From Sneathiella chungangensis (GTDB lineage Bacteria > Pseudomonadota > Alphaproteobacteria > Sneathiellales > Sneathiellaceae), in assembly GCF_009882935.1 (NCBI RefSeq), contig NZ_WTVA01000001.1, positions 696,238 to 760,237 on the forward strand: DNA of 64,000 nucleotides, written 5' to 3'. Every line of letters starts with the position of its first letter. Position 1 is the stretch's first letter. This document shows, in pieces, positions 5,803 to 47,359 of the stretch. The notes below the pieces were generated by a model, which was not told where the DNA came from, did not search any database, and saw nothing but the letters and a program-made list of their open reading frames with translations. The position numbers were made by a program, and so were the translations under genes.

Positions 5803-6279
5803 TTACGCCGCGCTTTCGGTCGCGCAGGGCTGGGCGAAGACATCCATGGGCTCGTCCGTCTCCAGATAGGATTTGAGGCTGGAGAGCACCAGCGGCCAAC
5901 CCCGCGTGACGCCGATCGCCATGCCGCTGCCGGTTTCCAGCTCGTCATGGGTGACGGTCAGCTTCACCATATCCTCATACGGCACCAGATCGAAGGTCAC
6001 CCGGCTGTGTTTCTCCGGGAGATCATATTCGGACGGGTCCGACCAGCTGATCACGAGGCGGTTGGGCGCATCGACCTCAAGCACGTTGCCCGCAATATTG
6101 ACCTTGCGCTCGTCATTGTCGCGGACATGCTCCCATTTCGAGCCGACCTTCCAGTCGGAGACATTCTCATGGCCCCAGTAGCGGGCGGCAATCTCGGGCC
6201 GGGTAATCGCCTCGAATATCTTTTCCGGCGTCGCGCGGATAAAGGTCACATATACAAAAGTCGTCTTTTCCTTAGTCAT
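5803..6279 (-). CDS. SRPBCC (AHSA1-like) domain protein
   Basis: A 158-aa START/Bet v1-like fold. The hallmark start FIRATPEKIFEAITRPEIAARYWG and the C-terminal GWPLVLSSLKSYLET helix match AHSA1-type SRPBCC proteins, which bind hydrophobic ligands. The first 8 bases of the gene overlap the end of the upstream ArsR gene, indicating translational coupling. The ArsR + SRPBCC pairing is very common in alphaproteobacteria and usually represents autoregulated operons of unknown physiological ligand. Confidence 0.9.
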   Translation of the reverse strand: MTKEKTTFVYVTFIRATPEKIFEAITRPEIAARYWGHENVSDWKVGSKWEHVRDNDERKVNIAGNVLEVDAPNRLVISWSDPSEYDLPEKHSRVTFDLVPYEDMVKLTVTHDELETGSGMAIGVTRGWPLVLSSLKSYLETDEPMDVFAQPCATESAA

Positions 6280-6595
6280 CAGTCTCTCCTTCCAGTTCCG
6301 TTTTCAGTTCATGAAGCAGGGCAAGCCGTTGCTGTTCAAATTTCCGTATCCATCGCTCGTAAACCATCTGAAGCGGCACCGGGTTGAGGAAATGCAGCCT
6401 CTCCCGCCCCCGCCGAACGACCGAGACCAGGTTCGCGTCTTCCAGCAGGCCAAGATGCTGCGTCACCGACTGGCGCCGCATATCCAGATGCCCGCACAAC
6501 TCCCCAAGCGTCTGCCCGTTCTTCTCGCAGAGCAGATCCAGCAGTTTCCTGCGTGTCGGATCGCCGAGCGCCTTGAATGTCTTGTCATCGTCCAT
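6272..6595 (-). CDS. ArsR family transcriptional regulator
   Basis: A 107-aa winged helix protein: FKALGDPTRRKLLDLL opens the domain, and the recognition helix RRQSVTQHLGLLEDANLV is followed by the wing VVRRGRERLHFLN. No metal-binding Cys cluster typical of ArsR/SmtB is present, so this is the non-metal (SdpR/SRPBCC-associated) subgroup. First gene of a likely arsR-SRPBCC-GFA operon; AAGGAG precedes the ATG by 6 bases. An operator-like dyad lies upstream at 6621-6638. Confidence 0.92.
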   Translation of the reverse strand: MDDDKTFKALGDPTRRKLLDLLCEKNGQTLGELCGHLDMRRQSVTQHLGLLEDANLVSVVRRGRERLHFLNPVPLQMVYERWIRKFEQQRLALLHELKTELEGETDD

Positions 6596-7057: not shown

Positions 7058-8947
7058 ATGCTTCAAATTAAGGATCTGACATACCGCATCGCCGGACGGA
7101 CGCTGCTGGAAAATGCTTCGCTGCATATTCCGGTCGGGCACAAGTTTGGCCTGATCGGACGCAACGGCACCGGGAAATCGACGCTTCTGAAATTGATCAC
7201 CGGGGAGCTGCATGCGGATGGCGGCACGATCGAGCTTCGAAATGGCGCGCGCATGGGCGTCCTCCCGCAGGAGGCGCCGGGCGGGCCGGAAAGCCTGATC
7301 GAGACGGTGCTTGCCGCCGATGTCGAGCGCGCGGCGCTGCTGAAGGAGGCGGAGACCGCCACCGACGGCATGCGCATTGCCGAAATCCATACCCGCCTTG
7401 CCGATATCGACGCCCATACGGCGGAGGCGCGGGCCGCGAAGATTCTCTCCGGCCTCGGCTTCGACCATGAAGCGCAGCAGCGCCCCTGCTCCTCCTTCTC
7501 CGGTGGCTGGCGGACGCGTGTCGCGCTCGCGGGCACCCTCTTTGCCGAGCCGGACCTGCTGCTCCTCGACGAGCCGAGCAACTATCTCGATCTCGAGGCG
7601 ACGCTGTGGCTGGAAAGTTTCCTCCGCGGGTATCAGCGCACCCTCGTCATCATCAGCCATGACAAGGACCTGCTGAATAACGTGGTGACGGAGATCGCCC
7701 ATCTCGACCAGATGAAACTGGTGAAATATACCGGCAACTACGATTTCTTCGAGAAGACCCGGCGCGAGCAGATGGAGCTTCTCGCCGGCATGGCCCGCAA
7801 GCAGGAAGCACAGCGGAAGCACTTACAATCCTTCGTCGATCGCTTCCGCGCCAAGGCATCCAAGGCCCGTCAGGCCCAGAGCCGCGTGAAGATGCTGGAA
7901 AAGATGAAGCCGGTCGTCGGCATCGTCGAGGAACATACGGCGAGCCTCACCTTCCACGCGCCGGAGCCGCTCTCCTCCCCCATCATCACGATGGAGCATT
8001 GCACGGTCGGCTATACCCCGGGCAAGCCGGTGTTGCGCAGCCTCGACCTCCGCATCGACATGGATGACCGGATCGCGCTGCTCGGCTCCAACGGCAACGG
8101 CAAGTCGACCTTCGCGAAACTGCTGGCCAACCGATTGCAGCCCGAAAGCGGCAGCCTGCGCAAATCGACCAAGCTGAAAATCGGCTTCTTCGCGCAGCAT
8201 CAGCTCGACGAGATGCGCGAGAACGAGACCGCCTATCAGCATCTCGCCGCCAAGATGGAAAATGCGCAGGAATCCAAGGTCCGCGCCCGCCTCGGCCAGT
8301 TCGGCTTCACCCGCCAGAAGACCGACACACCCGTCAAGCAGCTTTCGGGCGGCGAGAAGGCGCGGCTCAACTTCTGCCTGATCGCGGAGGAAAAGCCGCA
8401 TCTGCTGATCCTTGACGAGCCGACCAACCATCTCGATGTCGACAGTCGGGAGGCGCTGATCCAGGGCCTTAACGAATATGAGGGCGCGGTGCTGCTGATC
8501 AGCCATGATCCGCATCTCGTCAGCCTCGTCGCCGACCGGCTCTGGCTGGTCAAGGATGGCGGCGTGCATGCCTATGACGGCGATATCGAGGATTACAAGA
8601 AAGAGATTCTGGACGCCGGGCGCGGCGGCAATGGCCGCAAACCGGGCGCCGAGACAGGCGCGCCGAAGCTCTCCGGCAAGGAGGCCCGCAAGGCCCGCGC
8701 CGCCGCCCGCGCCGCCCTCGGTCCCAAGCGGCAGGAGGTGAAAAAGCTCGAGCAGCTGATGCAGGCCCTCGCCACCCGGCAGGCCGCGCTCGAAACCGAA
8801 CTCGCCGACCCCGTCACCTACGACAAGGGCACGGACTATCAGGCCAAACTCACCGGCCAGATCGGCCGCCTAAAGGCGGAACTCACCGAAGCGGAAGAAA
8901 AATGGCTCGCGCTCACGGAGGAGCTTGAAGCGCAAGGCGCGGCGTGA
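7058..8947 (+). CDS. ABC-F family ATPase (Uup/EttA-type)
   Basis: A 629-aa soluble tandem ABC protein without membrane segments, so not a transporter; ABC-F proteins act on ribosomes or in DNA repair (Uup). Domain 1 has Walker A GRNGTGKST and signature SFSGGWRTRVAL; domain 2 has GSNGNGKST and QLSGGEKARLNF. The charged ABC-F linker (about residues 235-300) lies between them, and a C-terminal coiled coil rich in Lys/Glu/Ala resembles Uup. Its last 29 codons (8861-8947) are present again at 9831-9917, beyond an inserted lipoprotein gene. That implies a cargo insertion at its 3' end. Confidence 0.93.
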   Translation: MLQIKDLTYRIAGRTLLENASLHIPVGHKFGLIGRNGTGKSTLLKLITGELHADGGTIELRNGARMGVLPQEAPGGPESLIETVLAADVERAALLKEAETATDGMRIAEIHTRLADIDAHTAEARAAKILSGLGFDHEAQQRPCSSFSGGWRTRVALAGTLFAEPDLLLLDEPSNYLDLEATLWLESFLRGYQRTLVIISHDKDLLNNVVTEIAHLDQMKLVKYTGNYDFFEKTRREQMELLAGMARKQEAQRKHLQSFVDRFRAKASKARQAQSRVKMLEKMKPVVGIVEEHTASLTFHAPEPLSSPIITMEHCTVGYTPGKPVLRSLDLRIDMDDRIALLGSNGNGKSTFAKLLANRLQPESGSLRKSTKLKIGFFAQHQLDEMRENETAYQHLAAKMENAQESKVRARLGQFGFTRQKTDTPVKQLSGGEKARLNFCLIAEEKPHLLILDEPTNHLDVDSREALIQGLNEYEGAVLLISHDPHLVSLVADRLWLVKDGGVHAYDGDIEDYKKEILDAGRGGNGRKPGAETGAPKLSGKEARKARAAARAALGPKRQEVKKLEQLMQALATRQAALETELADPVTYDKGTDYQAKLTGQIGRLKAELTEAEEKWLALTEELEAQGAA

Positions 8948-9059
8948 GGGCGCACCAATTCGCTTGATTGCGTCGGTAATCCCAAAACTCAATTGATGCT
9001 TGAATATATTTTCTATAAAACAATGGAAGATTATTTTGGCCGACTAAATGAGAGTATTG

Positions 9060-9800
9060 ATGCAAACGATACGTAGTTGTTGCGTTCTTCTTCTGGCGGT
9101 TCTGGTAACCGGATGCGCCAGCCTCACGAACACAGAGATTCACACCAGTCCGGAAGTTTCCCTGAACAGCAGCTTTCAACGAGCCCCTGACAAGCCGATT
9201 TTAATTTCGGTCATTGATCATGATGCGGCCAAACGCGAAGGCGATTTCGGGCCTGTTCTGATCAACGAGATCAATCGGATCTATCCAAACGCCTTTCAAG
9301 TCGTTCCGCCCTCCACGTCATCGGTTGCAGGCTCAGTTTCAATGCAGATTCACGTGAGGCGATTAGGTGGTTTCTTCAACGACTCCACCCTTTCTGTTCT
9401 TAGAAGGAGCGGTTACAAAGATCCAGTGTCCGGAGATGCAGACGAGTGGCAGCAAGTTATTTTAGAGGCAAAAAGCGAACAGCCTGTGATTTCAGGTTAT
9501 GTCGGAGGACCCTATGGCATCATTCGGGGATGGAGCGGCATTGCATTTATTGACATTAAAGTTCACGATTTAAGATTTGATCGCCCCCACATATTCACAA
9601 TTTCCATTGCAGCGGAACGTAGCACACTAAATAATTTTGGGTTTATTACAGCACAGATGAATGCCGCAGAAGCATGGGAAGACGTAGAGCCACGCCTCGC
9701 ACGTTTTCTGGATGCCGCAGTGCAGAAAGTTGCGGCAGAGCAATACCGGCAGGTTTCCCCACCCAAGCCGAACAAATCCGGTTCCTATAAAACGATCTAA
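9060..9800 (+). CDS. Putative lipoprotein, unknown family (inserted cargo)
   Basis: A 246-aa protein with a lipoprotein signal peptide (hydrophobic run CVLLLAVLVTGC, lipobox VTGC). The start is placed at ATG 9060, which has GAGAG 6 bases upstream; ATG 9048 is the alternative. The mature part has alternating beta-like segments (ILISVIDHD, VSMQIHVRRLGGFF, IAFIDIKVHDLRF) but I do not recognise the family. The gene is visibly AT-richer than its neighbours. It sits between the ABC-F stop codon and a second copy of the ABC-F 3' end, which marks it as acquired cargo. Confidence 0.65.
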   Translation: MQTIRSCCVLLLAVLVTGCASLTNTEIHTSPEVSLNSSFQRAPDKPILISVIDHDAAKREGDFGPVLINEINRIYPNAFQVVPPSTSSVAGSVSMQIHVRRLGGFFNDSTLSVLRRSGYKDPVSGDADEWQQVILEAKSEQPVISGYVGGPYGIIRGWSGIAFIDIKVHDLRFDRPHIFTISIAAERSTLNNFGFITAQMNAAEAWEDVEPRLARFLDAAVQKVAAEQYRQVSPPKPNKSGSYKTI

Positions 9801-9830: not shown

Positions 9831-9917
9831 ATCGGCCGCCTGAAAGCGGAACTCACCGACGCGGAAGAAAAATGGCTCGCGCTCACAGAAGAACTCGAGG
9901 CACAAGGCGCGGCGTAG
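9831..9917 (+). repeat. Displaced 3'-end copy of the ABC-F gene (29 codons)
   Basis: 87 bases aligned without gaps to 8861-8947 of the ABC-F gene, with 11 differences. Translated, it gives IGRLKAELT(D)AEEKWL... against the intact IGRLKAELT(E)AEEKWL...: eight sense codons change synonymously, one is Glu/Asp, and the stop is TAG instead of TGA. The junction carries a direct microrepeat CATCGGCCG at 9817-9825 and 9830-9838. There is no start or upstream coding region, so it is non-functional. Confidence 0.92.
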
Positions 9918-10012
9918 TTACTCAGTACCCGTGTTTAGGGGAAATTAAATTCTATCATACAATTCCTGATATATATTAGCTGAAACACTAATTGTTATCA
10001 GGAACAATCTCT

Positions 10013-10825
10013 ATGGATAAAGTTACTATCAACTTGAATGATATTAGCAGTATTGGATCCACTGCAATTAGGCGCGCATACGCATTTATGGGGTTTGGCA
10101 TAAATGCGGCGGAAAACCCAGACCAAAAACAAGTTGTTTTGCCGGGTATTGTGAAACCCCGAATTTTTCCTGAGAATGCTTCAAACGAAGATTTAAACAT
10201 GCTTAAGGCTGGATTTAAAACTTGGATTACGGGCAATGCATTACGGGAATTAGTTGAGGGATTTGAGCATTATTTTCGTGCTGTGTTGATTACATTAATA
10301 AGAACTCATCGTTCTAAAGGCCACGAAATTGACTTTAATAAGTTACTCAGAGATTTCGATAACAAAGGTATTGGGGGTAAGCTTGAACTTATTCGTAAAG
10401 AGTTCAATGTTGAGATTCCAAAATCTGTCGATTTTGTGGCCATTAACTACGCAAGAAATAGTTTAACACATGGACGTGGCTACATTCGTCCTCGCGATTG
10501 CAACGAAGACAAAGCTCTCGTAATGCAGTGGCGTGCCATAGAGATTTGGGTGGATAGCAACGATGGCGAGAAGATTCCCATAAAGTCAGACTCTGACGAG
10601 CCAATTCCAGTTCAAGCCGGTGGAACAATCAAACTCCAACCTTTTGATCAAGTTAAGAAAATTGATGCAGGCACGCCGCTTGATCTAACACCAAAAGAAC
10701 TTGAAGGTCTATTTTTTGCGTGTCAGATCTTTGTAAACGAATTGCAAAATAATTTAATACCGATTTTTCAGAGTATCGATATCACAATAAACACAGAAGA
10801 GAATGGAAGCGACGCGGAATCATAA
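10013..10825 (+). CDS. Hypothetical protein with HEPN-like RNxxxH motif
   Basis: A 270-aa, AT-rich gene. ATG 10013 is chosen because AGGA lies 9 bases upstream; a TTG at 9992 extends the frame. The protein is largely helical, with ITGNALRELVEGFEHYFRAVLI, then a charged region and ARNSLTHGRGYI. Arg148-Asn149-x3-His153 matches the R-x4-6-H catalytic signature of HEPN RNases, commonly found in toxin and anti-phage proteins. No NTase antitoxin (MNT) gene is adjacent, so it is either a stand-alone HEPN protein or a chance motif. It lies between the ABC-F 3' copy and the holC 3' copies. Confidence 0.55.
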   Translation: MDKVTINLNDISSIGSTAIRRAYAFMGFGINAAENPDQKQVVLPGIVKPRIFPENASNEDLNMLKAGFKTWITGNALRELVEGFEHYFRAVLITLIRTHRSKGHEIDFNKLLRDFDNKGIGGKLELIRKEFNVEIPKSVDFVAINYARNSLTHGRGYIRPRDCNEDKALVMQWRAIEIWVDSNDGEKIPIKSDSDEPIPVQAGGTIKLQPFDQVKKIDAGTPLDLTPKELEGLFFACQIFVNELQNNLIPIFQSIDITINTEENGSDAES

Positions 10826-10893
10826 TCCATCTGTCTTCCTCTCTGTTTTCGTCTAAAGCTAATAGCTGACGGGACGTGTGCCCTTCCCTATTC

Positions 10894-10935
10894 CTAAATC
10901 TGCCCCTCAATCCCCAGCGAGCAGATAAGTTCGAA
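10894..10935 (-). repeat. Orphan C-terminal fragment, type X (FELICSLGIEGQI*)
   Basis: A minus-strand reading ending in TAG that encodes FELICSLGIEGQI. It is about 76% identical at DNA level to 12186-12227 (FKLTPSLGIDGEI*). Just beyond it, at 10861-10881, lies a short stretch resembling both the holC PVSYY region and the GARPVAY part of the other fragment. It is interpreted as a relic of a displaced gene end; the parent gene is not in this window, unless it is a diverged holC. Confidence 0.45.
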
Positions 10936-10950
10936 ACAACCGTTTAGTCG

Positions 10951-11295
10951 CTAAAACAACAGATTGAAAACAACCCAGCCAGAAACGAAAAAAATCACTA
11001 CGGCTTCGATAGCCATTAACATTATGCCAATTGATGTAATTATTATAGCGACAATAGGTGAAGGCCTATTGACGATTTTTGACAGAACTTTCGCGATTCC
11101 CCGTTGAAGAAAATAAAATACACCGCCAAATATCAATGCGGCGGCAAACATTCCACCAATAAAATAAACAGCCGCCTGCCATGTTAGAAACGATGCCACA
11201 TCGGAAGTGGCAAAATGATACACGCCAATGCCAAGCCATAGGAATGTCGCGTACTTACCTGCTTTCGCCCTTTGACTATCGTAGAAGTCGTCCAA
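10951..11295 (-). CDS. Small multi-pass membrane protein, unknown
   Basis: A 114-aa protein with about four hydrophobic helices (ATFLWLGIGVYHFAT, WQAAVYFIGGMFAAALIFGGVFYFL, IVAIIITSIGIMLMAIEAVVIFF, VSGWVVFNLLF) and a basic loop after helix 2. The MDDFYDSQRAKAG start has a good GGAGG ribosome site. I recognise no family. It is AT-rich and lies within the accretion zone, between fragment X and a 97-codon holC 3' copy, so probably cargo. Confidence 0.6.
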   Translation of the reverse strand: MDDFYDSQRAKAGKYATFLWLGIGVYHFATSDVASFLTWQAAVYFIGGMFAAALIFGGVFYFLQRGIAKVLSKIVNRPSPIVAIIITSIGIMLMAIEAVVIFFVSGWVVFNLLF

Positions 11296-11374
11296 GACGC
11301 ACCTCCTGCTTGAATATAGTTTATCTATTTATCTTATAGATTTTCTCTAAAGCAGGGCAACTAATACCGTCCCC

Positions 11375-11667
11375 TCACGCCATTTTCTTCCAGCCCGCCT
11401 CCGTCTGCTGGTAGTAGCTGACCGGGATGTCGCTGTCCTTCAACTCGCGCCAGCGCGCGCGGGCGGCGGTGAGGGAGGCCTCGTCCTCGCCGTCGAAGAG
11501 ATAGAGGCAGCGGTCGAACGCCGCGAGGTCGGCGGCGGGGGCATCCTCGATCAGCACCAGCACCGCGGCGCCGTTCGCATTCCCCTCCGTCTCCCGGGTC
11601 AGCAGGACCGGCTGCGCCGCCGGATCGACGCCCTCCCCCGCCAGCGCATGGGGCAGGAAGCTGTCGG
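11375..11667 (-). repeat. Displaced 3'-end copy of holC (97 codons)
   Basis: 293 bases aligned without gaps to 13001-13293 of holC, with nine differences (about 97% identity). The frame is open and ends at the same TGA. About three residues differ (Val/Leu, His/Asp, Thr/Ala); the remaining differences are silent. Homology stops abruptly at 11667, where the N-terminal half is missing, so it is a fragment. An internal ATG gives a 62-codon frame that should not be annotated as a gene. Confidence 0.93.
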
Positions 11668-11784
11668 ACGGCCGCAGAGCGAAAATGCTTCCAACAATGC
11701 CTGAGTTGACCTATGTTTGAATATTATTGGAAGAGCATATGGGCAATGTCGGATTGGACGTGCCTGGTTTTACGGGAGATACGG

Positions 11785-12081
11785 ATGATGCAAAAGGTAG
11801 CGGCTGTCGCAATTGTGCTTTCGGGGTTGGCGGCGGGTCCGGCATCCGCCGCATGCCTGTATCAGGGCGGATATTACCCGCAGGGAACGACCTTGTGCTT
11901 TGACGGCTGGCTGCAGGAATGCACGGTCGCCGACTATTGGAAAGCGATCGGCATGTGCCATGCTCCGGACATCAAGGAACCGTTTGTGACCTACCAGAAG
12001 CCCGATGCGCAGACGCTGATGGCAAAGTTTCTCGCCGGTGGGACACGCGTGTTGCCCCAATCGGTACCGACGGACGATTGA
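11785..12081 (+). CDS. Small exported protein, unknown (inserted cargo)
   Basis: A 98-aa protein with a Sec signal peptide (MMQKVAAVAIVLSGLAAGPASA, cleaved before ACLYQGG) and four cysteines in the mature part (CLYQGGYYPQGTTLCFDGWLQEC...MC), which suggests two disulfides. ATG 11785 follows a GGGAG ribosome site; a longer frame from 11713 is unlikely. The CxYxGxxYxxGxxxC pattern vaguely recalls DUF1496-type small periplasmic proteins, but I do not assign it. It lies between two holC 3' copies. Confidence 0.6.
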   Translation: MMQKVAAVAIVLSGLAAGPASAACLYQGGYYPQGTTLCFDGWLQECTVADYWKAIGMCHAPDIKEPFVTYQKPDAQTLMAKFLAGGTRVLPQSVPTDD

Positions 12082-12185
12082 TCAGGCGACCAGGGTCGGG
12101 CCATAGGCGGCCAGACACGGTGCTTATTGGCAGGCTCGAAAACCGCTAGTCAAAACCGTTCGCCTGTATCCTCGACCGAATTTCC

Positions 12186-12254
12186 CTAAATCTCCCCGTC
12201 AATCCCGAGGGACGGGGTAAGCTTGAAATAGGCGACGGGGCGCGCCCCGCACAT
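12186..12254 (-). repeat. Orphan C-terminal fragment, type X' (GARPVAYFKL..GIDGEI*)
   Basis: A short minus-strand reading of 22 codons ending TAG, starting 8 bases after the stop of the 23-codon holC copy. Its last 14 codons resemble 10894-10935. The segment PVAYFKLTPS also loosely resembles the holC C-terminus PVSYYQQTEA, so it may be the end of a diverged holC or of another lost gene. It contains a GGGGCGCGCCCC palindrome. Confidence 0.4.
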
Positions 12255-12262
12255 AAAGGCCC

Positions 12263-12331
12263 TCACGCCATTTTCTTCCAGCCAGCTTCCGTCTGCTGAT
12301 AGTAGCTGACGGGGATGTCCTGCTCCTTGAA
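12263..12331 (-). repeat. Displaced 3'-end copy of holC (23 codons)
   Basis: Encodes FKEQDIPVSYYQQTEAGW followed by KKMA and TGA, against LKDSDIPVSYYQQTEAGW in the intact gene. From Asp-Ile-Pro to the stop every change is synonymous (CCC/CCG, TAT/TAC, GAA/GAG, GCT/GCG), so this end evolved as coding sequence. It is more diverged than the 97-codon copy, which implies a separate or older event. Confidence 0.88.
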
Positions 12332-12380
12332 TCTTGTCCTGAACATAGCATTTTCTTGCAGGTCACATTTCATAGCCAAA

Positions 12381-12989
12381 CTATTGATTTTCAATTACTT
12401 TCAGATTCTCTATCAGTTCCAGGATATTTTCTTTAATCGAAAATGAAACTGCAGCCCACCCCATTGCGACCGTGGCGGCCGTATCTTTGTCGAAAAAATA
12501 TCGATTATTAATGGTGTCGTCGAAAAGGATATCGCCGGTTACAGAATCCTTCAAAGTATAATGAAGCTTCGTATACCCGGTTGAAAGGCCAATTCGTCCG
12601 CCCCAATACACACATAAATCAACGCCTTCCGGCTGATTTAGGCTCGGGGTATAATCAAGCTCCTCCACACGAACACTAAGTTTATACCGTGACACGGCCG
12701 ATCCCAAATACCCGAAATTTTTAAGGCTGTCTCGGATTGCCCATTCGATATTTTGATTCACTTGTGGTGGCTCAACCGGAAAATATAAATACTCCGTCTT
12801 TCCGAGAAATCCGGTCAACTCGATATTTTCCTTAAGTTCCCCCATCGCGACGAATTCCTCCGAGCTCGATGGGGAAGCAGTCATCGTATCCTGCCCCCCG
12901 TAAATGGAAAGCTTGATCAGGCAGGCACAGCCCGTGAGACCGCCAAGAACAACAAAGATCAACAGCCATTTTGACAGGTGTTTAAACAT
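12381..12989 (-). CDS. Putative lipoprotein, unknown family (inserted cargo)
   Basis: A 202-aa protein with a lipoprotein signal peptide (WLLIFVVLGGLTGC, lipobox LTGC). The mature protein alternates beta strands and polar loops, and its C-terminus is helical (SFSIKENILELIENLKVI). No family is recognised. It starts 11 bases after the holC stop, and its ribosome site GAGGAGAA overlaps the holC TGA. The insertion is thus tightly fitted to the end of holC and may be co-transcribed from the pepA-holC promoter. AT-rich compared with pepA/holC. Confidence 0.65.
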   Translation of the reverse strand: MFKHLSKWLLIFVVLGGLTGCACLIKLSIYGGQDTMTASPSSSEEFVAMGELKENIELTGFLGKTEYLYFPVEPPQVNQNIEWAIRDSLKNFGYLGSAVSRYKLSVRVEELDYTPSLNQPEGVDLCVYWGGRIGLSTGYTKLHYTLKDSVTGDILFDDTINNRYFFDKDTAATVAMGWAAVSFSIKENILELIENLKVIENQ

Positions 12990-13000
12990 CTAAATTCTCC

Positions 13001-13453
13001 TCACGCCATTTTCTTCCAGCCCGCCTCCGTCTGCTGGTAGTAGCTGACCGGGATGTCGCTGTCCTTCAACTCGCGCCAGCGGGTGCGCGCGGCGGTGAGG
13101 GAGGCCTCGTCCTCGCCGTCGAAGAGATAGAGGCAGCGGTCGAACGCCGCGAGGTCGGCGGCGGGGGCATGCTCGATCAGCACCAGCACCGCGGCGCCGT
13201 TCGCGTTCCCCTCCGTCTCCCGCGTCAGCAGGACCGGCTGCGCCGCCGGATCGACCCCCTCCCCCGCCACCGCATGGGGCAGAAAGCTGTCGGCGCGATA
13301 GCTCCAGAGGGCGTCGTCGAGCTGTTCCAGCTGTTCTTCCGTCTGGCCCCGCACCAACACGCGAAAGCCCCGCTCCGTCACCTTTTCAAGCAAGCGCGGC
13401 AAGGCCCGCGCGAGCGGTTCCGATTGCAGATGGTAGAAGCTGACCTCGTTCAC
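13001..13453 (-). CDS. holC: DNA polymerase III chi subunit
   Basis: A 150-aa clamp-loader accessory subunit linking the replisome to SSB. Recognised by EVSFYHLQSEPLARALPRLLEK at the N-terminus, DDALWSYRADSFLPH, the central PVLLT and LYLFDG strands, and the C-terminal RWRELKDSDIPVSYYQQ helix/strand typical of HolC. Placed 6 bases downstream of pepA, a conserved alphaproteobacterial pair. Its 3' end is present in two further truncated copies to the left (11375-11667 and 12263-12331), interleaved with cargo genes. Confidence 0.92.
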   Translation of the reverse strand: MNEVSFYHLQSEPLARALPRLLEKVTERGFRVLVRGQTEEQLEQLDDALWSYRADSFLPHAVAGEGVDPAAQPVLLTRETEGNANGAAVLVLIEHAPAADLAAFDRCLYLFDGEDEASLTAARTRWRELKDSDIPVSYYQQTEAGWKKMA

Positions 13454-13459
13454 GGGGCG

Positions 13460-14968
13460 CTACTTGCCCTCGTAATAATCCCGCACGAACTTGTCGAGCA
13501 GGCGGACGCCATAGCCCGTGCCGCCCTTCGGCACCGTCGGCTTGTCGGCCTTGGACCAGGCCATGCCGGCAATGTCGAGATGCGCCCAGGGCACGTCATT
13601 CACGAATTTCGCCAGGAACTCGGCGGCGACGATGGAGCCCGCGCCGCGCCCGCCCGAGCCGATATTCTGCAAATCGGCGATGGGGCTGTCGATCTGCTTG
13701 GCATAGGCATCGGACATCGGCAGGCGCCAGACGCCCTCTCCCACCGCCTTGCCGGCGGCGAACAGACGCTCCGACAGCTCGTCATTGTTCGAAAACAGCC
13801 CGGCATTTTCATGGCCGAGCGTGATGATGATGGCGCCGGTGAGCGTCGCGAGATCGATCATGAACTCGGGCTTGAAGCGGTCCTGCGTGTACCAGAGCGC
13901 ATCGGCGAGGACGAGGCGGCCTTCGGCGTCGGTGTTCAGGATCTCGATCGTCGTCCCGGACATGGCGGTGACGATATCGCCGGGCCGCTGCGCATTGCCG
14001 TCGGGCATATTCTCGACAAGGCCGATGACGCCGACGGCGTTCACCTTCGCCTTGCGCCCGGCCAGCGCCTTCATCAGGCCGGTCACCGTGCCGGCGCCGC
14101 CCATGTCCCATTTCATTTCCTCCATGCCGGGGCCGGGTTTCAGCGAGATGCCGCCGGTATCGAAGCAGACGCCCTTGCCGACGAAGGCGAGCGGCTTGCG
14201 CCCCGCCTTCTTGCCGGTCGCGCCGTTCCACTGCATGACCACAAGGCGGCTGTCGCGGCGGGAGCCCTGCCCGACGCCCAGCAGCGCGCCCATGCCGAGC
14301 CGCTGCATCTTGGCTTCGTCCAGCACCTCGACCTCGACGCCGAGTTCGGTGAGTTCCAGGCAGCGGGCGGCGAAGCTTTCCGGATAGAGGGTATTGGCCG
14401 GCTCGCTCACCAGGTCGCGGGTGAGGAAGACGCCTTCGACCAGCGCCTCCATGTCGGCGAAGGCCTTGCGCGCGGTCGCCGACCCCTTGCAGGAGACGGT
14501 CATGCGGGTCAGGCTCGGCGCCTTGTCCTCCTCCTCCTTGGTCTTGTATTTGGTGAAGCGGTAGGAGCCCATCATCGCCCCGGCGGCGACGGCGGCCGCG
14601 GCCTCATTCGTCTTGATCGCGGTGGCGTTCAGCTCATCGAGGATGACGGTAACGCTGCGGGCGCCCGAGGCGTTGAGGCGCTTGACCAGCGCCCCGCCCA
14701 GGGTTTCCATATCGGTCTGGGTCAGCTTCTCCGTCTCGCCGAGGCCGAACAGCAGCACGCGCGAGACTTCCAGCCCCGCCGGCGCCATGATCTCCAGAAA
14801 GTCACCCTTCTTGCCCTTGAAGCGGCTGGTCTCCAGCGCGCGGGAAACGGCGCCCTTCGTCTTCTTGTCCACCTCTGCCGCGGTCGGCGAGAGGGCTTTG
14901 TCGGCATAGACGGCCACGGCGAGCGAGCCGCGTTTGGGAAGCGAGATTTCGGAAAATGCGAACTTCAT
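13460..14968 (-). CDS. pepA: Leucyl aminopeptidase (M17)
   Basis: A 502-aa cytosolic di-zinc aminopeptidase. The start MKFAFSEISLPKRG is chosen because AGGA lies 7 bases upstream; the frame extends further but without a better site. The catalytic C-terminal domain shows VGKGVCFDTGGISLKP (first metal Lys/Asp), MKWDMGGAGTV and the invariant NTDAEGRLVLADAL signature with metal-binding Asp/Glu and catalytic Arg. Transcribed divergently from lptF with holC behind it. Confidence 0.97.
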   Translation of the reverse strand: MKFAFSEISLPKRGSLAVAVYADKALSPTAAEVDKKTKGAVSRALETSRFKGKKGDFLEIMAPAGLEVSRVLLFGLGETEKLTQTDMETLGGALVKRLNASGARSVTVILDELNATAIKTNEAAAAVAAGAMMGSYRFTKYKTKEEEDKAPSLTRMTVSCKGSATARKAFADMEALVEGVFLTRDLVSEPANTLYPESFAARCLELTELGVEVEVLDEAKMQRLGMGALLGVGQGSRRDSRLVVMQWNGATGKKAGRKPLAFVGKGVCFDTGGISLKPGPGMEEMKWDMGGAGTVTGLMKALAGRKAKVNAVGVIGLVENMPDGNAQRPGDIVTAMSGTTIEILNTDAEGRLVLADALWYTQDRFKPEFMIDLATLTGAIIITLGHENAGLFSNNDELSERLFAAGKAVGEGVWRLPMSDAYAKQIDSPIADLQNIGSGGRGAGSIVAAEFLAKFVNDVPWAHLDIAGMAWSKADKPTVPKGGTGYGVRLLDKFVRDYYEGK

Positions 14969-15112: not shown

Positions 15113-16228
15113 CGTTATATTATGAAGCAATTGGCTGTTCCCATGCTCTTCATAACCTTTTCGCTGACGGGGGTGATCTGGCTATCGCAGTCCCTCAAGT
15201 TCGTTGAAAAGCTGATTAACGGTCTGCCGGTCTCGACCTTTCTCTATCTCTCGCTCCTGCTGCTTCCCGATATCCTCCGCTATACGCTGCTTCTCGGCCT
15301 CTTCTTCGGCACGCTGTTCGCCTTCAACAAGCTCTATTCGGACAGCGAGCTGATCGTCATGTGGGCGGCGGGGCTCAGCAAGTCGGCGCTGGCGAAACCG
15401 GTGATCTATTTCGCGCTGATCATTTCGCTGGTGATGTATTTCCTCGGCTTCATCCTCGTGCCCTATGGCAACCGGACGGTGACGGAACTGCGCGTCGCCT
15501 GGCAGGACAGCCTCGCCGCCGTGGTCCTCCGCGAAGGCGTGTTCAATGCCCTCACCGACGGCGTCACGGTCTATATCCGCGAGAAGAACCAGACCGGCGA
15601 GATGCTTGGCATCCTCGTCCATGACGAGCGGGTGCCGGAGAAGCCGGTGACCTATATGGCGGAGCGCGGCGCCTTCGTGAAAACCGCCGAGGGGCCGCGC
15701 TTCATCATGAATGCGGGAAACCTGCAGGAAGTCTCCCTTGATGATGCGAAACTGAGCCTGCTCTATTTCGACCAGTATACCCTCGACATCAGCCAGTTCG
15801 AGAAACAGAGCGGCGCCCGCTGGCTGTCGCCGGAGAACCGCTATCTGTGGGAACTGATCAATCCGGAGGAGAGCGAGCGGACGCAGCGCGAATTGCACAA
15901 GCTCAAGGCCGAGCTGCACCAGCGGCTTGTGCTGCCGCTCTATGCGGTGGCGCTCGCGCTGATCGCCCTTGCCGGGGTGATGGGCGGGGAATTCACCCGT
16001 CGCGGCCGGGCGAAACGCATGACCGTTGCCGCCGCCGCGGGCGTCCTCACGCTGATTGCCGCCATGGCGCTGTTCCAGGCGGCGGAGAAATCGGCCCTGC
16101 TGATCCCCGTGCTGTATCTGCTGCCCGTCGTGGCCGGGGCGCTGGGCGGCTATATCGCCTCGGGCGGGCGCTTCCGTTTCCTTGAAAGCCGGATGGCGCC
16201 CGGCGCCGCGGGCGAAGGGGGGACCTGA
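15098..16228 (+). CDS. lptF: LPS export ABC transporter permease LptF
   Basis: A 376-aa permease of the LptB2FGC complex that extracts LPS from the inner membrane. N-terminal RYIMKQLAVPMLFITFSLTGVIWLSQSLKF is the first helix of the LptF/LptG family; three N-terminal and three C-terminal membrane segments flank a periplasmic jellyroll (about residues 120-255). No ribosome site precedes ATG 15098, see the promoter entry. The stop overlaps the lptG start by one base (TGATG). Confidence 0.95.
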   Translation: MKNINRYIMKQLAVPMLFITFSLTGVIWLSQSLKFVEKLINGLPVSTFLYLSLLLLPDILRYTLLLGLFFGTLFAFNKLYSDSELIVMWAAGLSKSALAKPVIYFALIISLVMYFLGFILVPYGNRTVTELRVAWQDSLAAVVLREGVFNALTDGVTVYIREKNQTGEMLGILVHDERVPEKPVTYMAERGAFVKTAEGPRFIMNAGNLQEVSLDDAKLSLLYFDQYTLDISQFEKQSGARWLSPENRYLWELINPEESERTQRELHKLKAELHQRLVLPLYAVALALIALAGVMGGEFTRRGRAKRMTVAAAAGVLTLIAAMALFQAAEKSALLIPVLYLLPVVAGALGGYIASGGRFRFLESRMAPGAAGEGGT

Positions 16229-43841: not shown

Positions 43842-44540
43842 ATGTCCCTGAAACTGAAAGATAAAGTGGCGCTGATCACCGGCGCCTCAAGCGGCATCGG
43901 CGCGGCCGTCGCGAAGAAATTCGCAAGCGAAGGCGCGCATGTCATCCTCGTCGCCCGCTCTGTCGGCGGGCTGGAGGAGGTCGATGACGAAATCCAGAAC
44001 GCGGGCGGCAGCGCGACCCTCGTCCCGCTCGATCTCCTGGACACCGCCGCCATCGACGGCCTCGCCATGCCGCTTTATGAGCGCTGGAAGAAGCTCGATA
44101 TTTTTGTCGGCAACGCGGGCATGGTCGGCAAGCTGATGCCGACGCAGCAATATGTGCCGGATCTGTGGGAGAATGTGTTCCGCCTCAATGTCCATGCGAA
44201 CCAGCGGCTGATCCGCGCCCTCGATCCGCTGCTCCGCCAGAGCGAGGCCGGCCGCGCGCTTTTTGTGACCTCCCATGTCGCCCATGAGAACAAGCAGTTC
44301 TGGAGCGCCTATGCCGCCAGCAAGGCGGCGCTCGAGGTGATCGCGAAAACCTACGCCAACGAGGTCGCGAAAACCAACCTCCGCGTCAACCTCATCGATC
44401 CCGGCCCGACGCGCACCCGCCTCCGCAGCCTCGCCTACCCCGCCGAAAACCCGGAGGACCACCCGCTGCCCGAGACAAAAGCGCAAATGTTCCTCGACGC
44501 GGTGCTGAGTGAGGAAAATGGCGTGGTGTTTGGGGGGTAG
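43842..44540 (+). CDS. SDR family oxidoreductase
   Basis: A 232-aa short-chain dehydrogenase: cofactor motif ALITGASSGIGAAVAKKFA, NAG in IFVGNAGMVG, catalytic Tyr-Lys in SAYAASKAALE. The substrate is unknown; an SDR directly after purF is common in alphaproteobacteria. The C-terminus ends VVFGG*, whereas the displaced copy at 45080 reads VVFEGGALR*. The working gene therefore appears shortened by several residues where its 3' end joins cargo DNA. Confidence 0.93.
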   Translation: MSLKLKDKVALITGASSGIGAAVAKKFASEGAHVILVARSVGGLEEVDDEIQNAGGSATLVPLDLLDTAAIDGLAMPLYERWKKLDIFVGNAGMVGKLMPTQQYVPDLWENVFRLNVHANQRLIRALDPLLRQSEAGRALFVTSHVAHENKQFWSAYAASKAALEVIAKTYANEVAKTNLRVNLIDPGPTRTRLRSLAYPAENPEDHPLPETKAQMFLDAVLSEENGVVFGG

Positions 44541-44676
44541 ATTCGCCGGGTTTTCGCCCTCAAAAAGAGAACACTACCCTTGACCGATCCCGATTTCCGG
44601 GCAATCGTGCGGCCGGACACCCCCTCGGCATGGCGCGCCGGTGGCGGCAGGCATTGGACGGAACAGGAGAGACACC

Positions 44677-45063
44677 ATGCGCATGATGGCGATTGCGGCC
44701 TTCACATTACTGATGATGACCGGCACGGCGCTGGCCGATAAATGGACGGGGCTTTACCAGAATGTCGATCACCTCGATGGCGCCATCGGCACCCTGTCGG
44801 TGGTCAAGCTGGAAGACGGCAGCTACCGGATTGTCGTGACGACCGACGCGCTCAACCATTGCCCGGGTGGCGGCCCCGGCATCGTGACGGCGACCGGGCG
44901 GGAAGAAGGCGACCGGCTCATACGGGAGAATGTCAAATATAAATGCGGCGACGGACCGTTTCAGGAGGGCAAGGGCGGCGCCTATATGCTCGATACGAAC
45001 GGCGTCCTGTCGACCGAGACGATATTCGGCCACACAGTCTATTTCCATCGCGTCCATCCCTGA
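44677..45063 (+). CDS. Small exported protein, unknown (inserted cargo)
   Basis: A 128-aa protein with a Sec signal peptide (MMAIAAFTLLMMTGTALA) and an all-beta mature part (GTLSVVKLEDGSYRIVVTTDALN, GPGIVTATGREEGDRLI) with two cysteines (NHCPGGG, KYKCGDG). ATG 44677 follows AGGAG; a longer frame from 44641 is less likely. GC-rich like its surroundings, so not obviously foreign by composition. It lies between the SDR gene and a second copy of the SDR 3' end. No family recognised. Confidence 0.7.
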   Translation: MRMMAIAAFTLLMMTGTALADKWTGLYQNVDHLDGAIGTLSVVKLEDGSYRIVVTTDALNHCPGGGPGIVTATGREEGDRLIRENVKYKCGDGPFQEGKGGAYMLDTNGVLSTETIFGHTVYFHRVHP

Positions 45064-45079: not shown

Positions 45080-45212
45080 CCCGGCCCGACGCGCACCCGC
45101 CTCCGCAGCCTCGCCTACCCCGCCGAAAACCCCGAAGACCACCCCCTCCCCGAGACAAAAGCGCAGATGTTCCTCGACGCCGTGCTGAGTGAGGAAAATG
45201 GCGTGGTGTTTG
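45080..45212 (+). repeat. Displaced 3'-end copy of the SDR gene
   Basis: 133 bases aligned without gaps to 44400-44532, six differences (about 95.5% identity), every one a silent third-position change. The frame continues past the homology as VVFEGGALR* with TAG at 45230-45232. There is no start, so it is a fragment; it probably holds the original end of the SDR gene. Confidence 0.94.
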
Positions 45213-45247
45213 AGGGGGGAGCGTTAAGATAGTGTAGATCAACAAGT

Positions 45248-46135
45248 TTATTTCTCAGGCTTAAATTTGTTAATCAATTCCCATTCCTCAATGCTTTTGG
45301 GTTTAAACGAAATAAACTCGCTTTTGCCGCAATATGGCAAATTAAGCAACGAGATTAGGCCGCTATCAAAGTGACCATTCAAGAGAATTATACCTTCCTC
45401 TGCGAGCCGCTGTCTCGTACCTCTTTTTTTATCGCTGCGTAACCTACGCATAAAATCACTTTGCTGCGCCACTGCCTCGATGATATCTCGAGTAATTACT
45501 CGCTCTTGTATATATCGAAACAATGTTTTTACGCGCTCATTTCCATTTTTCCCATTGAAAATCGCGGCAACAGCTTCTTCAGATACGGTTCGCCAGAAGT
45601 TTGGAGGATATTCCTCCTCCCTAAATATCCAGTAAATATTTGAAAAGCCATCTTGCGAAATACTTTTCTTGGCATCTCTATTTGAACTTCTGGTTAAATA
45701 TTCCTCTCGCGCAATGAAAATGCCAAAATAGCAAAGCGATGATTCTTCATCGGCAGCAACTAGCATACAAGGATGATCTATTGCCTCTGTAGGTATCATC
45801 CAATTGCTGCCCATTGTGTTTTTGATATCAACATCCCGGCCCTTGATCACTGTATCAAGCTTGCCTTTCTCGAGATCCAGCAAAGCACGCAGCATAATTT
45901 CGACACGAGTACCAATATAAGTTTTCTCAGTTTTCTCAAGCTGAGAATAAGCCCGTCTTCCAGTTTTCGCGGTTTGCAGGACATCGTCAACGCATTCACG
46001 CAGCATGCTAGTAAAGGAAGCACGTAAAGCATCCCTGCCGCCGCCGCGAGATACAATTTCATCAACTAATTCTTTTAAAAGATCATAATCCTTATGCCCT
46101 AAGGCAACAGCGCTTGCTGGAACATTTTTTTTCAC
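45248..46135 (-). CDS. NaeI-like type II restriction endonuclease
   Basis: A 295-aa AT-rich gene with the NaeI layout. An EndA-like N-terminal domain holds Glu79 (TRVE), Asp94 and Asp103-x-Lys105 (LDTVIKGRDVDIK); the 9- and 2-residue spacings equal those of the NaeI active site (Asp86, Asp95, Lys97). Then MIPTEAIDHPCMLVAADE and NRDAKKSI, and a C-terminal TOPO-like DNA-binding part. NaeI cuts GCCGGC and behaves as a two-site (type IIE) enzyme. Whether this protein shares that specificity is inferred. Paired with the C5 methyltransferase to its right, same strand, 65-base gap. Confidence 0.75.
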   Translation of the reverse strand: MKKNVPASAVALGHKDYDLLKELVDEIVSRGGGRDALRASFTSMLRECVDDVLQTAKTGRRAYSQLEKTEKTYIGTRVEIMLRALLDLEKGKLDTVIKGRDVDIKNTMGSNWMIPTEAIDHPCMLVAADEESSLCYFGIFIAREEYLTRSSNRDAKKSISQDGFSNIYWIFREEEYPPNFWRTVSEEAVAAIFNGKNGNERVKTLFRYIQERVITRDIIEAVAQQSDFMRRLRSDKKRGTRQRLAEEGIILLNGHFDSGLISLLNLPYCGKSEFISFKPKSIEEWELINKFKPEK

Positions 46136-46200
46136 AGTGCTGACAACCCATACGATTCAATCCTATGGGACATTGCCACGAATAGTGTGGTGTGAAAAGA

Positions 46201-47172
46201 CTAGGCTCGCAAAAGGTAAATTTGTGAAACGGAAATTGCCTCGGCAAGTTTCTGCGCAACGGCTTTTGCTACCGGTGGCGGAAAGGCATTACCGACCTGC
46301 CGGTACGCCGCAGTTTTTTTTCCTGAAAACACCCATTCTTTTGGAAACCCCTGGAGCAAGGCCACCATAGGTACCGTCAGTCGGGGCATGCCAACAAAAT
46401 CCCGATCAGGCGCTTCATTGGCGATCCCCATGCCATCGACCCCGAGCGTTGCCCACGCCCGCTTTGCTCGCGTTGGTCCCAAATCCGGCCCGCCATGTTT
46501 TTTGGAACCACCAACAATGGTGGGCGCTATTTCATTTGCAGTCTCAACCCATTTTTCTAAACCTTTCCAGCCAAATTCTCCCATAAGTTCAGAAAGGGCC
46601 TCTCCTACCGTAGACGGATTACCCGGTAATGTAACAGGCCAATTAAACCGGTCCGCATACTCTTTCCGGATAGCAACAATTGCTACACGGGGCCGAAGCT
46701 GCGGCACTCCAAAGTCTGAAGCATTGAAAAGATGCCAATCAGTTTCGTAGCCAAGTTTATGAAGCTCGTTTTTCAGATGCTGCCGGTAATCAGAAAAGAC
46801 AGCATCAAGGAACCCGCGCACATTTTCGATCATCACCGCCTTCGGCCGCGTTTCGTCAATGATTCGGATTGCCTCCGGAAACAGGTTACGTTCGTCATTT
46901 TTCCCAAGCTGTTTACCGGCAACTGAAAAAGGCGGACAGGGAAGACCGCCTGCGACAAGGTCAATTCCAGCGTAAGGTTTCGCGTCAAAAGTAGTGAGAT
47001 CTGATTGATCGCCTTCCAACACGTTCCAATCCGGTCGGTTCAGCCGCAATGTGTTGCGACAATGCGTATCATTTTCGACAAGTGCTTCATGATTGAAACC
47101 TGCTTGCTCAAGACCAAGCGCCTGACCGCCTGCGCCTGCACAAACCTCAATAGATGATAACGCGCTATTCAT
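46201..47172 (-). CDS. DNA (cytosine-5) methyltransferase of R-M system
   Basis: A 323-aa C5 methyltransferase. Motif I SSIEVCAGAGGQALGLEQAGF, motif IV GGLPCPPFSVAGKQLG with catalytic Cys79 (PCPP rather than the usual PCQ), motif VI MIENVRG, motif VIII QLRPRVAIVAI, motif X RQVGNAFPPPVA. ATG 47172 has AAGGGG 7 bases upstream; ATG 47178 is too close to it. Transcribed ahead of the NaeI-like nuclease, an order that would let protection precede cutting. AT-richer than der and purF, so probably acquired. Confidence 0.92.
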   Translation of the reverse strand: MNSALSSIEVCAGAGGQALGLEQAGFNHEALVENDTHCRNTLRLNRPDWNVLEGDQSDLTTFDAKPYAGIDLVAGGLPCPPFSVAGKQLGKNDERNLFPEAIRIIDETRPKAVMIENVRGFLDAVFSDYRQHLKNELHKLGYETDWHLFNASDFGVPQLRPRVAIVAIRKEYADRFNWPVTLPGNPSTVGEALSELMGEFGWKGLEKWVETANEIAPTIVGGSKKHGGPDLGPTRAKRAWATLGVDGMGIANEAPDRDFVGMPRLTVPMVALLQGFPKEWVFSGKKTAAYRQVGNAFPPPVAKAVAQKLAEAISVSQIYLLRA

Positions 47173-47359
47173 TGCCATTCCCCTTTTGATGCCATTAGAA
47201 CTTTACATTTGAGTGGCGGGTGATGAAACATGTAATTCACTAATAGGCCGCCCGCAAAAATTGTTCTCTTTTTGTTCCAATAACATCTACATGAAATAAT
47301 TTCAATTGTTTTTACAAGCGGAAACGGACACCAACAACGCCGGGGATGCAACCTACCCC

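Follow-up and report, generated by a model that had tools for sequence, protein, structure and literature searches.

The holC–abcF interval of Sneathiella chungangensis

The genome under study (G000) is that of Sneathiella chungangensis, 3.81 Mb in 15 contigs, and "the window" denotes the whole 64-kb stretch of it that was analysed. In the window, an intact holC gene lies convergent with an intact gene for an ABC-F type ATPase, for which the name abcF was coined in this analysis. The features from holC down to abcF are as follows:

13001–13453, minus strand: holC, intact, DNA polymerase III chi, 150 aa (Pfam PF04364, DNA_pol3_chi, E 7.5e-38)
12381–12989, minus strand: cargo 1, lipoprotein-like ORF, 202 aa (ORF list, profile scan)
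12260–12331, minus strand: displaced holC 3' end, short copy, 72 bp, about 23 codons (self-BLAST)
12185–12259, minus strand: remnant of a 200-aa membrane-protein gene, shortened by deletion (comparison with S. litorea)
11785–12081, plus strand: cargo 2, small exported-protein gene, about 98 aa from the likely start (ORF list)
11370–11667, minus strand: displaced holC 3' end, long copy, 298 bp, codons 54–150, gene nt 161–453 (self-BLAST)
10951–11295, minus strand: 114-aa membrane-protein-like ORF attached to the long displaced holC end (attachment also in SAT66)
10893–10936, minus strand: second remnant of the 200-aa membrane-protein gene (sequence comparison)
9992–10825, plus strand: 277-aa ORF with a TTG start, weakly HEPN-like (PADLOC RTasHEPN, E 0.0012)
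9831–9915, plus strand: displaced abcF 3' end, 85 bp, 89% identity (self-BLAST)
9048–9800, plus strand: lipoprotein-like ORF between abcF and the displaced abcF end (ORF list)
7058–8947, plus strand: abcF, intact, ABC-F type ATPase (profile scan)

The initial annotation had described the 3' end of holC as present three times with cargo between the copies, and self-BLAST and the order of the ORFs agree with this. Towards lower coordinates, the intact gene is followed by the lipoprotein-like ORF, the short end of 23 codons, the exported-protein ORF on the opposite strand and the long end of 97 codons, the very sequence of genes that had been proposed (ORF list and self-BLAST). The long copy is 97% identical to intact holC over 298 bp (E 1e-139), which upholds the early estimate of about 3% divergence; the short copy, for which 15–20% had been given, differs by only about 10% over the homologous stretch (90% in self-BLAST, E about 1e-18; 88% to the family reference). 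The displaced abcF end and the two membrane-protein remnants had been missed. Because abcF also has a displaced end, the pattern of repeated gene ends belongs to the whole holC–abcF interval and not to holC alone. An assembly artefact is unlikely, because the junction between the exported gene and the 97-codon end recurs in an independent genome, that of Sneathiella sp. HT1-7.

The 200-aa membrane-protein gene is intact behind holC in S. litorea and also intact in G009 and G012. The "SLGIEGQI" remnant is the end of this gene. That the remnants represent a dispersed repeat was considered and set aside, a search of the own genome having returned the query and matches of 14–21 bases only. This search missed the second remnant, which has 77% identity, and was therefore blind to diverged copies, so that such copies may occur elsewhere in the genome. 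The 277-aa ORF at 9992–10825 has a weak likeness to the HEPN protein of DRT-type defence systems.

Variation of the interval among relatives

The comparison covered 24 Sneathiella genomes, that of S. chungangensis included. The holC gene was found in 19; in 17 of these the whole stretch as far as abcF could be read, whereas in G007 and G019 the contig stops too early. The relatives named here are S. sedimenti (G021), Sneathiella sp. HT1-7 (G002), S. litorea (G017), the SAT66 MAG (G015) and S. chinensis (G010). The two core genes flank the gap in 17 of 17 assessable genomes, and the distance between the match ends is 21–60 bp in seven and 551–4060 bp in ten of them. The interval is a hotspot with mostly different cargo. 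Most of this cargo is specific to one genome, such as an FAD oxidoreductase in SAT66, a Schlafen/AlbA_2 protein in G013 and a PLP enzyme in G003; in S. litorea, a CPCC-family protein (Pfam) adjoins a toxin-tip-like ORF. Shared cargo comprises the exported gene (S. chungangensis and HT1-7), the 114-aa ORF (S. chungangensis and SAT66), a 163-aa ORF (G020 and G022) and a toxin-tip region (HT1-7 and S. litorea). The toxin-tip-like ORFs, which we take to be rhs-like, lie beside small partner ORFs, one of which belongs to the CPCC family (HT1-7, L055:3726–4477; S. litorea, L056:11901–12680).

Displaced holC ends occur in three of the 17 assessable genomes (S. chungangensis, HT1-7 and SAT66) and displaced abcF ends in two (S. 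chungangensis and SAT66). Named alphaproteobacterial loci were scanned as well. From the 79 loci taken, L082 was left out since its holC is cut, and among the remaining 78 a displaced holC end was present in HT1-7 and SAT66 only; minus-strand matches of 28–55 bp in five of the 78 were not scored as displaced ends. Donors of cargo 1 and cargo 2 were sought in 23 other genomes, including 14 of the 23 other Sneathiella. Cargo 2 was present in one of them, HT1-7, and relatives of the cargo 1 lipoprotein in none.

Neither an integrase nor a transposase was found in the five cargo ORFs of the window with Pfam, NCBIfam, PADLOC and PHROGs, so the initial statement that no integrase is visible holds in the Pfam scan of these ORFs. 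Pfam likewise revealed no integrase in ten cargo ORFs from seven relatives, a set without the cargo of G010 and G022. The 64-kb window contains no tRNA gene. Among the literature matches listed for holC together with genomic island and insertion, no title concerns holC as an insertion site.

Displaced ends at SDR and gatB

A second site of the pattern lies in the same window, at a gene for an SDR protein:

43842–44540, plus strand: SDR gene, intact (self-BLAST)
44641–45063, plus strand: exported-protein-like ORF of 140 aa between the SDR gene and its displaced end (ORF list)
45080–45217, plus strand: displaced SDR 3' end, 138 bp, 95% identity (self-BLAST)
45248–47178, minus strand: NaeI-type restriction endonuclease (45248–46135) and C5 cytosine methylase (46201–47178), adjoining the displaced SDR end

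The flanks of the SDR gene in relatives have no match beyond the gene. A further displaced 3' end, 158 bp long and 92% identical, belongs to gatB, and direct repeats of local sequence of 72–298 bp are thus found at four genes of S. chungangensis (holC, abcF, SDR and gatB).

At gatB, relatives represent both arrangements. In HT1-7, the locus is free of cargo, with a short segment of conserved sequence, perhaps a small ORF, between gatB and the next gene, which is presumably RecO-like. In G001, a homologue of the cargo lies between gatB and the conserved segment, which is again followed by the next gene, and in G007 pieces of the cargo lie behind gatB. The order in S. chungangensis is gatB, cargo, the segment cut at AGGCGGC, the displaced gatB end and a GyrI-like gene, with a second copy of the segment, seen by eye, before the next gene. 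At the joint, the BLAST matches to the segment and to gatB overlap by exactly 7 nt, AGGCGGC. This motif is present in gatB and in the segment of G001 and G009, and with one mismatch in that of HT1-7. Of five joints, that of gatB is the only one with relatives in both arrangements, and its 7-nt match is a single observation. A second joint, in HT1-7, was read by eye as lying at TTTA, which is only suggestive of microhomology.

Alleles rather than decayed copies

Intact and displaced ends differ by 3–11%; the comparators are other genomes, none of them conspecific. If a displaced end were a decaying self-copy, its differences should be spread over the codon positions, and at nearly all of these sites relatives should match the intact gene. 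The differences in S. chungangensis fall at third codon positions in 6 of 9 cases for the long holC end, 5 of 5 for the short one, 9 of 9 for abcF, 6 of 7 for SDR and 8 of 12 for gatB. Pooled over the five ends, this amounts to 34 of 42 (binomial p = 3e-10), so the copies arose between working alleles and not as decayed self-duplications. At the same 42 sites, relatives match the displaced copy 22 times and the intact gene 13 times, with seven ties. The ratio of displaced to intact states is 7:2 for the long holC end, 6:2 for abcF, 4:1 for SDR, 4:5 for gatB and 1:3 for the short holC end. Self-duplication followed by decay was set aside on these two counts. A single segmental duplication with equal divergence of all copies, named at the outset as the outcome that would speak against separate insertions, was not seen, given the third-position bias and a unit held in common with HT1-7 across the species gap.

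Decay is visible on a smaller scale. Four gatB differences lie outside third positions; every relative has the state of the intact gene there, which we read as decay after the joint was made. Pairs of intact and displaced ends in other genomes have third-position counts of 10 of 18 (SAT66 holC), 15 of 21 (SAT66 abcF) and 40 of 72 (HT1-7 holC). Changes private to the long-end copy of HT1-7 are distributed 5/1/2 over the three codon positions, as expected after displacement. By their substitution patterns, the displaced ends appear to have passed through a first phase as working alleles and a second one as debris.

Sharing between species and retained neighbours

The own holC gene of HT1-7 is 76% identical to that of S. 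chungangensis. The second holC end of HT1-7, together with the exported gene, matches S. chungangensis at 92% over 768 bp with the same junction, and the long holC ends of both genomes are 96.7% alike. A cut-off gene end is not expected to be conserved better than the functional gene; the unit of exported gene and 97-codon end has therefore crossed between species. Over 8.5 kb upstream, S. chungangensis is about equidistant from its relatives (300-bp bins mostly at 69–89%). The 3' part of abcF, at about 8280–8820, is 95–100% identical to HT1-7 in 60-bp bins, and the rest of the gene is mostly at 73–95% with one other bin at 100%. In a second short tract near abcF, at window positions 5940–6299, identity to HT1-7 rises to 93–100% from about 80% on either side.

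The long end and the 114-aa ORF of S. chungangensis match the displaced end of SAT66 over 521 contiguous bp at 80%. Since the displaced end of SAT66 has the same ORF behind it, this ORF is an old neighbour of the long end. In HT1-7, the long end is followed instead by a shortened gene for a membrane protein, resembling the one downstream of holC in S. sedimenti. On one side the long ends of S. chungangensis and HT1-7 have the same neighbour and on the other side different ones, as would be expected if exchange had taken place by way of the gene end. In HT1-7 it is the displaced end that is foreign, and the long holC end of S. chungangensis carries mostly genus-typical states; in most cases, either allele may have been the resident one.

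The initial proposal of at least two stacked events is supported by this comparison: the two displaced holC ends differ in type, and each has its own neighbour matched in a relative, that of the long end lying also behind the displaced holC end of SAT66 and that of the short end behind the intact holC of S. sedimenti. The greater divergence of the short copy need not mean greater age; it is likewise compatible with an end that belongs to a different type.

Origin of the displaced gene ends

The extra gene ends are read here as joints between two alleles of one locus, made by homology on one side and by microhomology on the other, and we give this reading a probability of about two thirds. DNA from another strain or Sneathiella species would bring its own version of the core-gene end and the genes behind it. 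One side of the incoming DNA would undergo homologous recombination with the chromosome, and the other would be joined non-homologously at a few matching bases. With the joint placed inside the core gene of one allele, the 3' end of that gene would survive in truncated form together with the genes that formerly followed it, and both sets of cargo would be kept in tandem. Repeats of this process from the holC side and from the abcF side could build the stack, and later exchanges may then use the displaced ends as short stretches of homology. For gatB, the mirror case, in which DNA came in from the other flank, agrees with the data as well.

The arrangement of the genes, the allelic divergence of the ends, one unit shared across species, one retained neighbour, the recurrence at SDR and gatB and the 7-nt match at gatB are seen directly in the sequences. 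From these traces we infer the one-sided recombination itself, the entry of the DNA by transformation and the identity of the resident allele. The one marker that points to competence is ComEC, present in 22 of 24 Sneathiella genomes and common in controls too (10 of 14 control genomes). Ku was found in none of the 24 Sneathiella genomes, and Ku-dependent joining was set aside for this reason. The same applies to a gene transfer agent as the route, its marker GTA_TIM being found in none of the 24. A general "allele stacking" route in Sneathiella, in which head-to-tail joining at microhomology proceeds without Ku, displaced ends act as portable homology arms and the hotspot feeds itself from both flanks, is a tentative extension and rather doubtful.

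The same final map, truncated copy and retained neighbours included, would result from a Campbell-type integration, in which a linear fragment with a gene end and cargo is circularised at microhomology and then inserted by one crossover in the gene end. Circularisation is a named fate of linear DNA in E. coli in the account of PMC3240628. The crossover would, however, have to fall within 72–298 bp at 3–11% divergence, and the high-identity tract of abcF, which need not stem from this event, suggests linear homology of greater length. This origin is unlikely, but it deserves some weight. Cargo between direct repeats would also be left by an insertion with long target duplication, in which the local target is copied as the cargo inserts and both ends are self-derived; the SDR site adjoins a restriction-modification pair, the setting of the H. 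pylori pattern as related in PMC1643837. The bias of 34 in 42 and the 22:13 preference of relatives for the displaced copy argue for allelic divergence instead, and the copy in HT1-7 is foreign to HT1-7 and not a copy of its local target, which makes such an insertion improbable.

An island aimed at the 3' end of holC that has lost its integrase could account for displaced holC ends with cargo in three of 17 assessable genomes, but it should have had a fixed attachment site. The truncations lie at nt 161 and 385 and, in SAT66, at nt 361 (codons 54, about 129 and 121), displaced ends exist at abcF, SDR and gatB too, and no integrase was found in the five window cargo ORFs or the ten from seven relatives, nor a tRNA in the window; a remnant of this kind is extremely unlikely. 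The likening of the holC stack to island accretion at tRNA 3' ends, made in the initial annotation, is misleading for similar reasons, as the truncation points vary, abcF and two unrelated loci carry the same scar, and neither integrase nor tRNA was found. The initial interpretation as a whole is partly supported. Duplication of flanking gene ends by IS-mediated (IS6-type) units finds some backing at locus L223, where a remnant of an IS6-type transposase (Pfam DDE_Tnp_IS240) lies between the copies of a repeat pair. This locus lies at N runs and may be misassembled, however, and the ORFs between the copies at holC, abcF, SDR and gatB gave no transposase match, so there is very little likelihood of an IS origin.

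Relation to known systems

At rhs loci, displaced orphan toxin tips occur, with older 3' modules downstream of the newer one. The joining of alleles proposed here gives the same order, and rhs-like tips are found as gap cargo in two relatives, but the displaced ends of Sneathiella belong to housekeeping genes. Homology-facilitated illegitimate recombination is a process to which a 2002 paper by de Vries and Wackernagel is reportedly linked. In the part of PMC3240628 that deals with it, it is described for the transformation of three competent species and for conjugation in E. coli. It resembles the present reading in having homology on one side and a non-homologous join on the other (PMC3240628), and differs from what that account covers in that the Sneathiella case is known from traces in natural genomes alone, at several loci.

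For integrase-free hotspots, double homologous recombination has been proposed (Oliveira et al. 2017, PMC5635113), and gene gain at such sites is argued there from recombination rates in flanking genes. Like the hotspots outlined in that paper, the holC–abcF interval has constant core genes on its flanks and variable cargo, lacks any recognisable gene for mobility, and has a tract in a flanking gene that may stem from recombination (PMC5635113). Double homologous recombination should leave no scar; the process in Sneathiella has left displaced ends that mark joints stacking both alleles. Insertion with long target duplication has been named in H. pylori beside restriction-modification genes (Nobusato et al. 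2000, as cited in PMC1643837). As far as that summary goes, the likeness lies in cargo between long direct repeats and in one site by a restriction-modification pair; the difference is that the Sneathiella repeats are alleles that have diverged, and in HT1-7 one of them is foreign to the genome that carries it.

The component processes are already known, and no claim is made that natural scars of this kind are unreported. The pattern is a variant that combines integrase-free hotspots and homology-facilitated illegitimate recombination. As scars, displaced 3' ends can be read for three things: the former neighbour, the type to which the other allele belonged, and the joint itself. Whether alleles were joined or a gene end was self-duplicated can be told from the codon positions at which intact and displaced ends differ. 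This simple test is applicable to any genome, so that the share of one-sided recombination in gene gain could become countable. Allele joining would represent gene gain without an enzyme of a mobile element.

Frequency of repeat pairs

Stretches of S. chungangensis totalling 800 kb were scanned for repeat pairs with an identity floor of 80%. Five pairs were found, namely those of gatB and L223, two pairs at L161 that lie within genes, and a non-coding element of 51 bp at L171; one of the five, gatB, is a clean further displaced end. In 200 kb each of HT1-7, G011, G032 and G037, no pair of at least 80% was listed. G035 has one 55-bp pair that is not a gene end (L200), and a 78% pair at a gene end (L196), below the floor, may be an old case. 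In S. litorea, two pairs at 81–83% were listed at L237, one of which the script called the 3' end of a 100-aa ORF; inspected by eye, we take both to be an intergenic repeat. These numbers are too small to call S. chungangensis enriched.

Three of these loci deserve separate mention. The L237 repeat of S. litorea (8354–8505 and 15474–15624; 154 bp, 81%) is apparently intergenic and perhaps belongs to a dispersed repeat family. At L223:10148–10980, at N runs, a truncated IS6-type transposase is flanked by two copies of the end of a membrane-protein gene, possibly as an IS-linked version of the pattern or as a misassembly. At L171, an inverted-repeat element with GGCCGGC followed by TCTAACAGGGAGG occurs twice at 98% identity (14340–14390 and 14867–14917), with a diverged third copy seen by eye near 14600, and is perhaps a repeated regulatory element.
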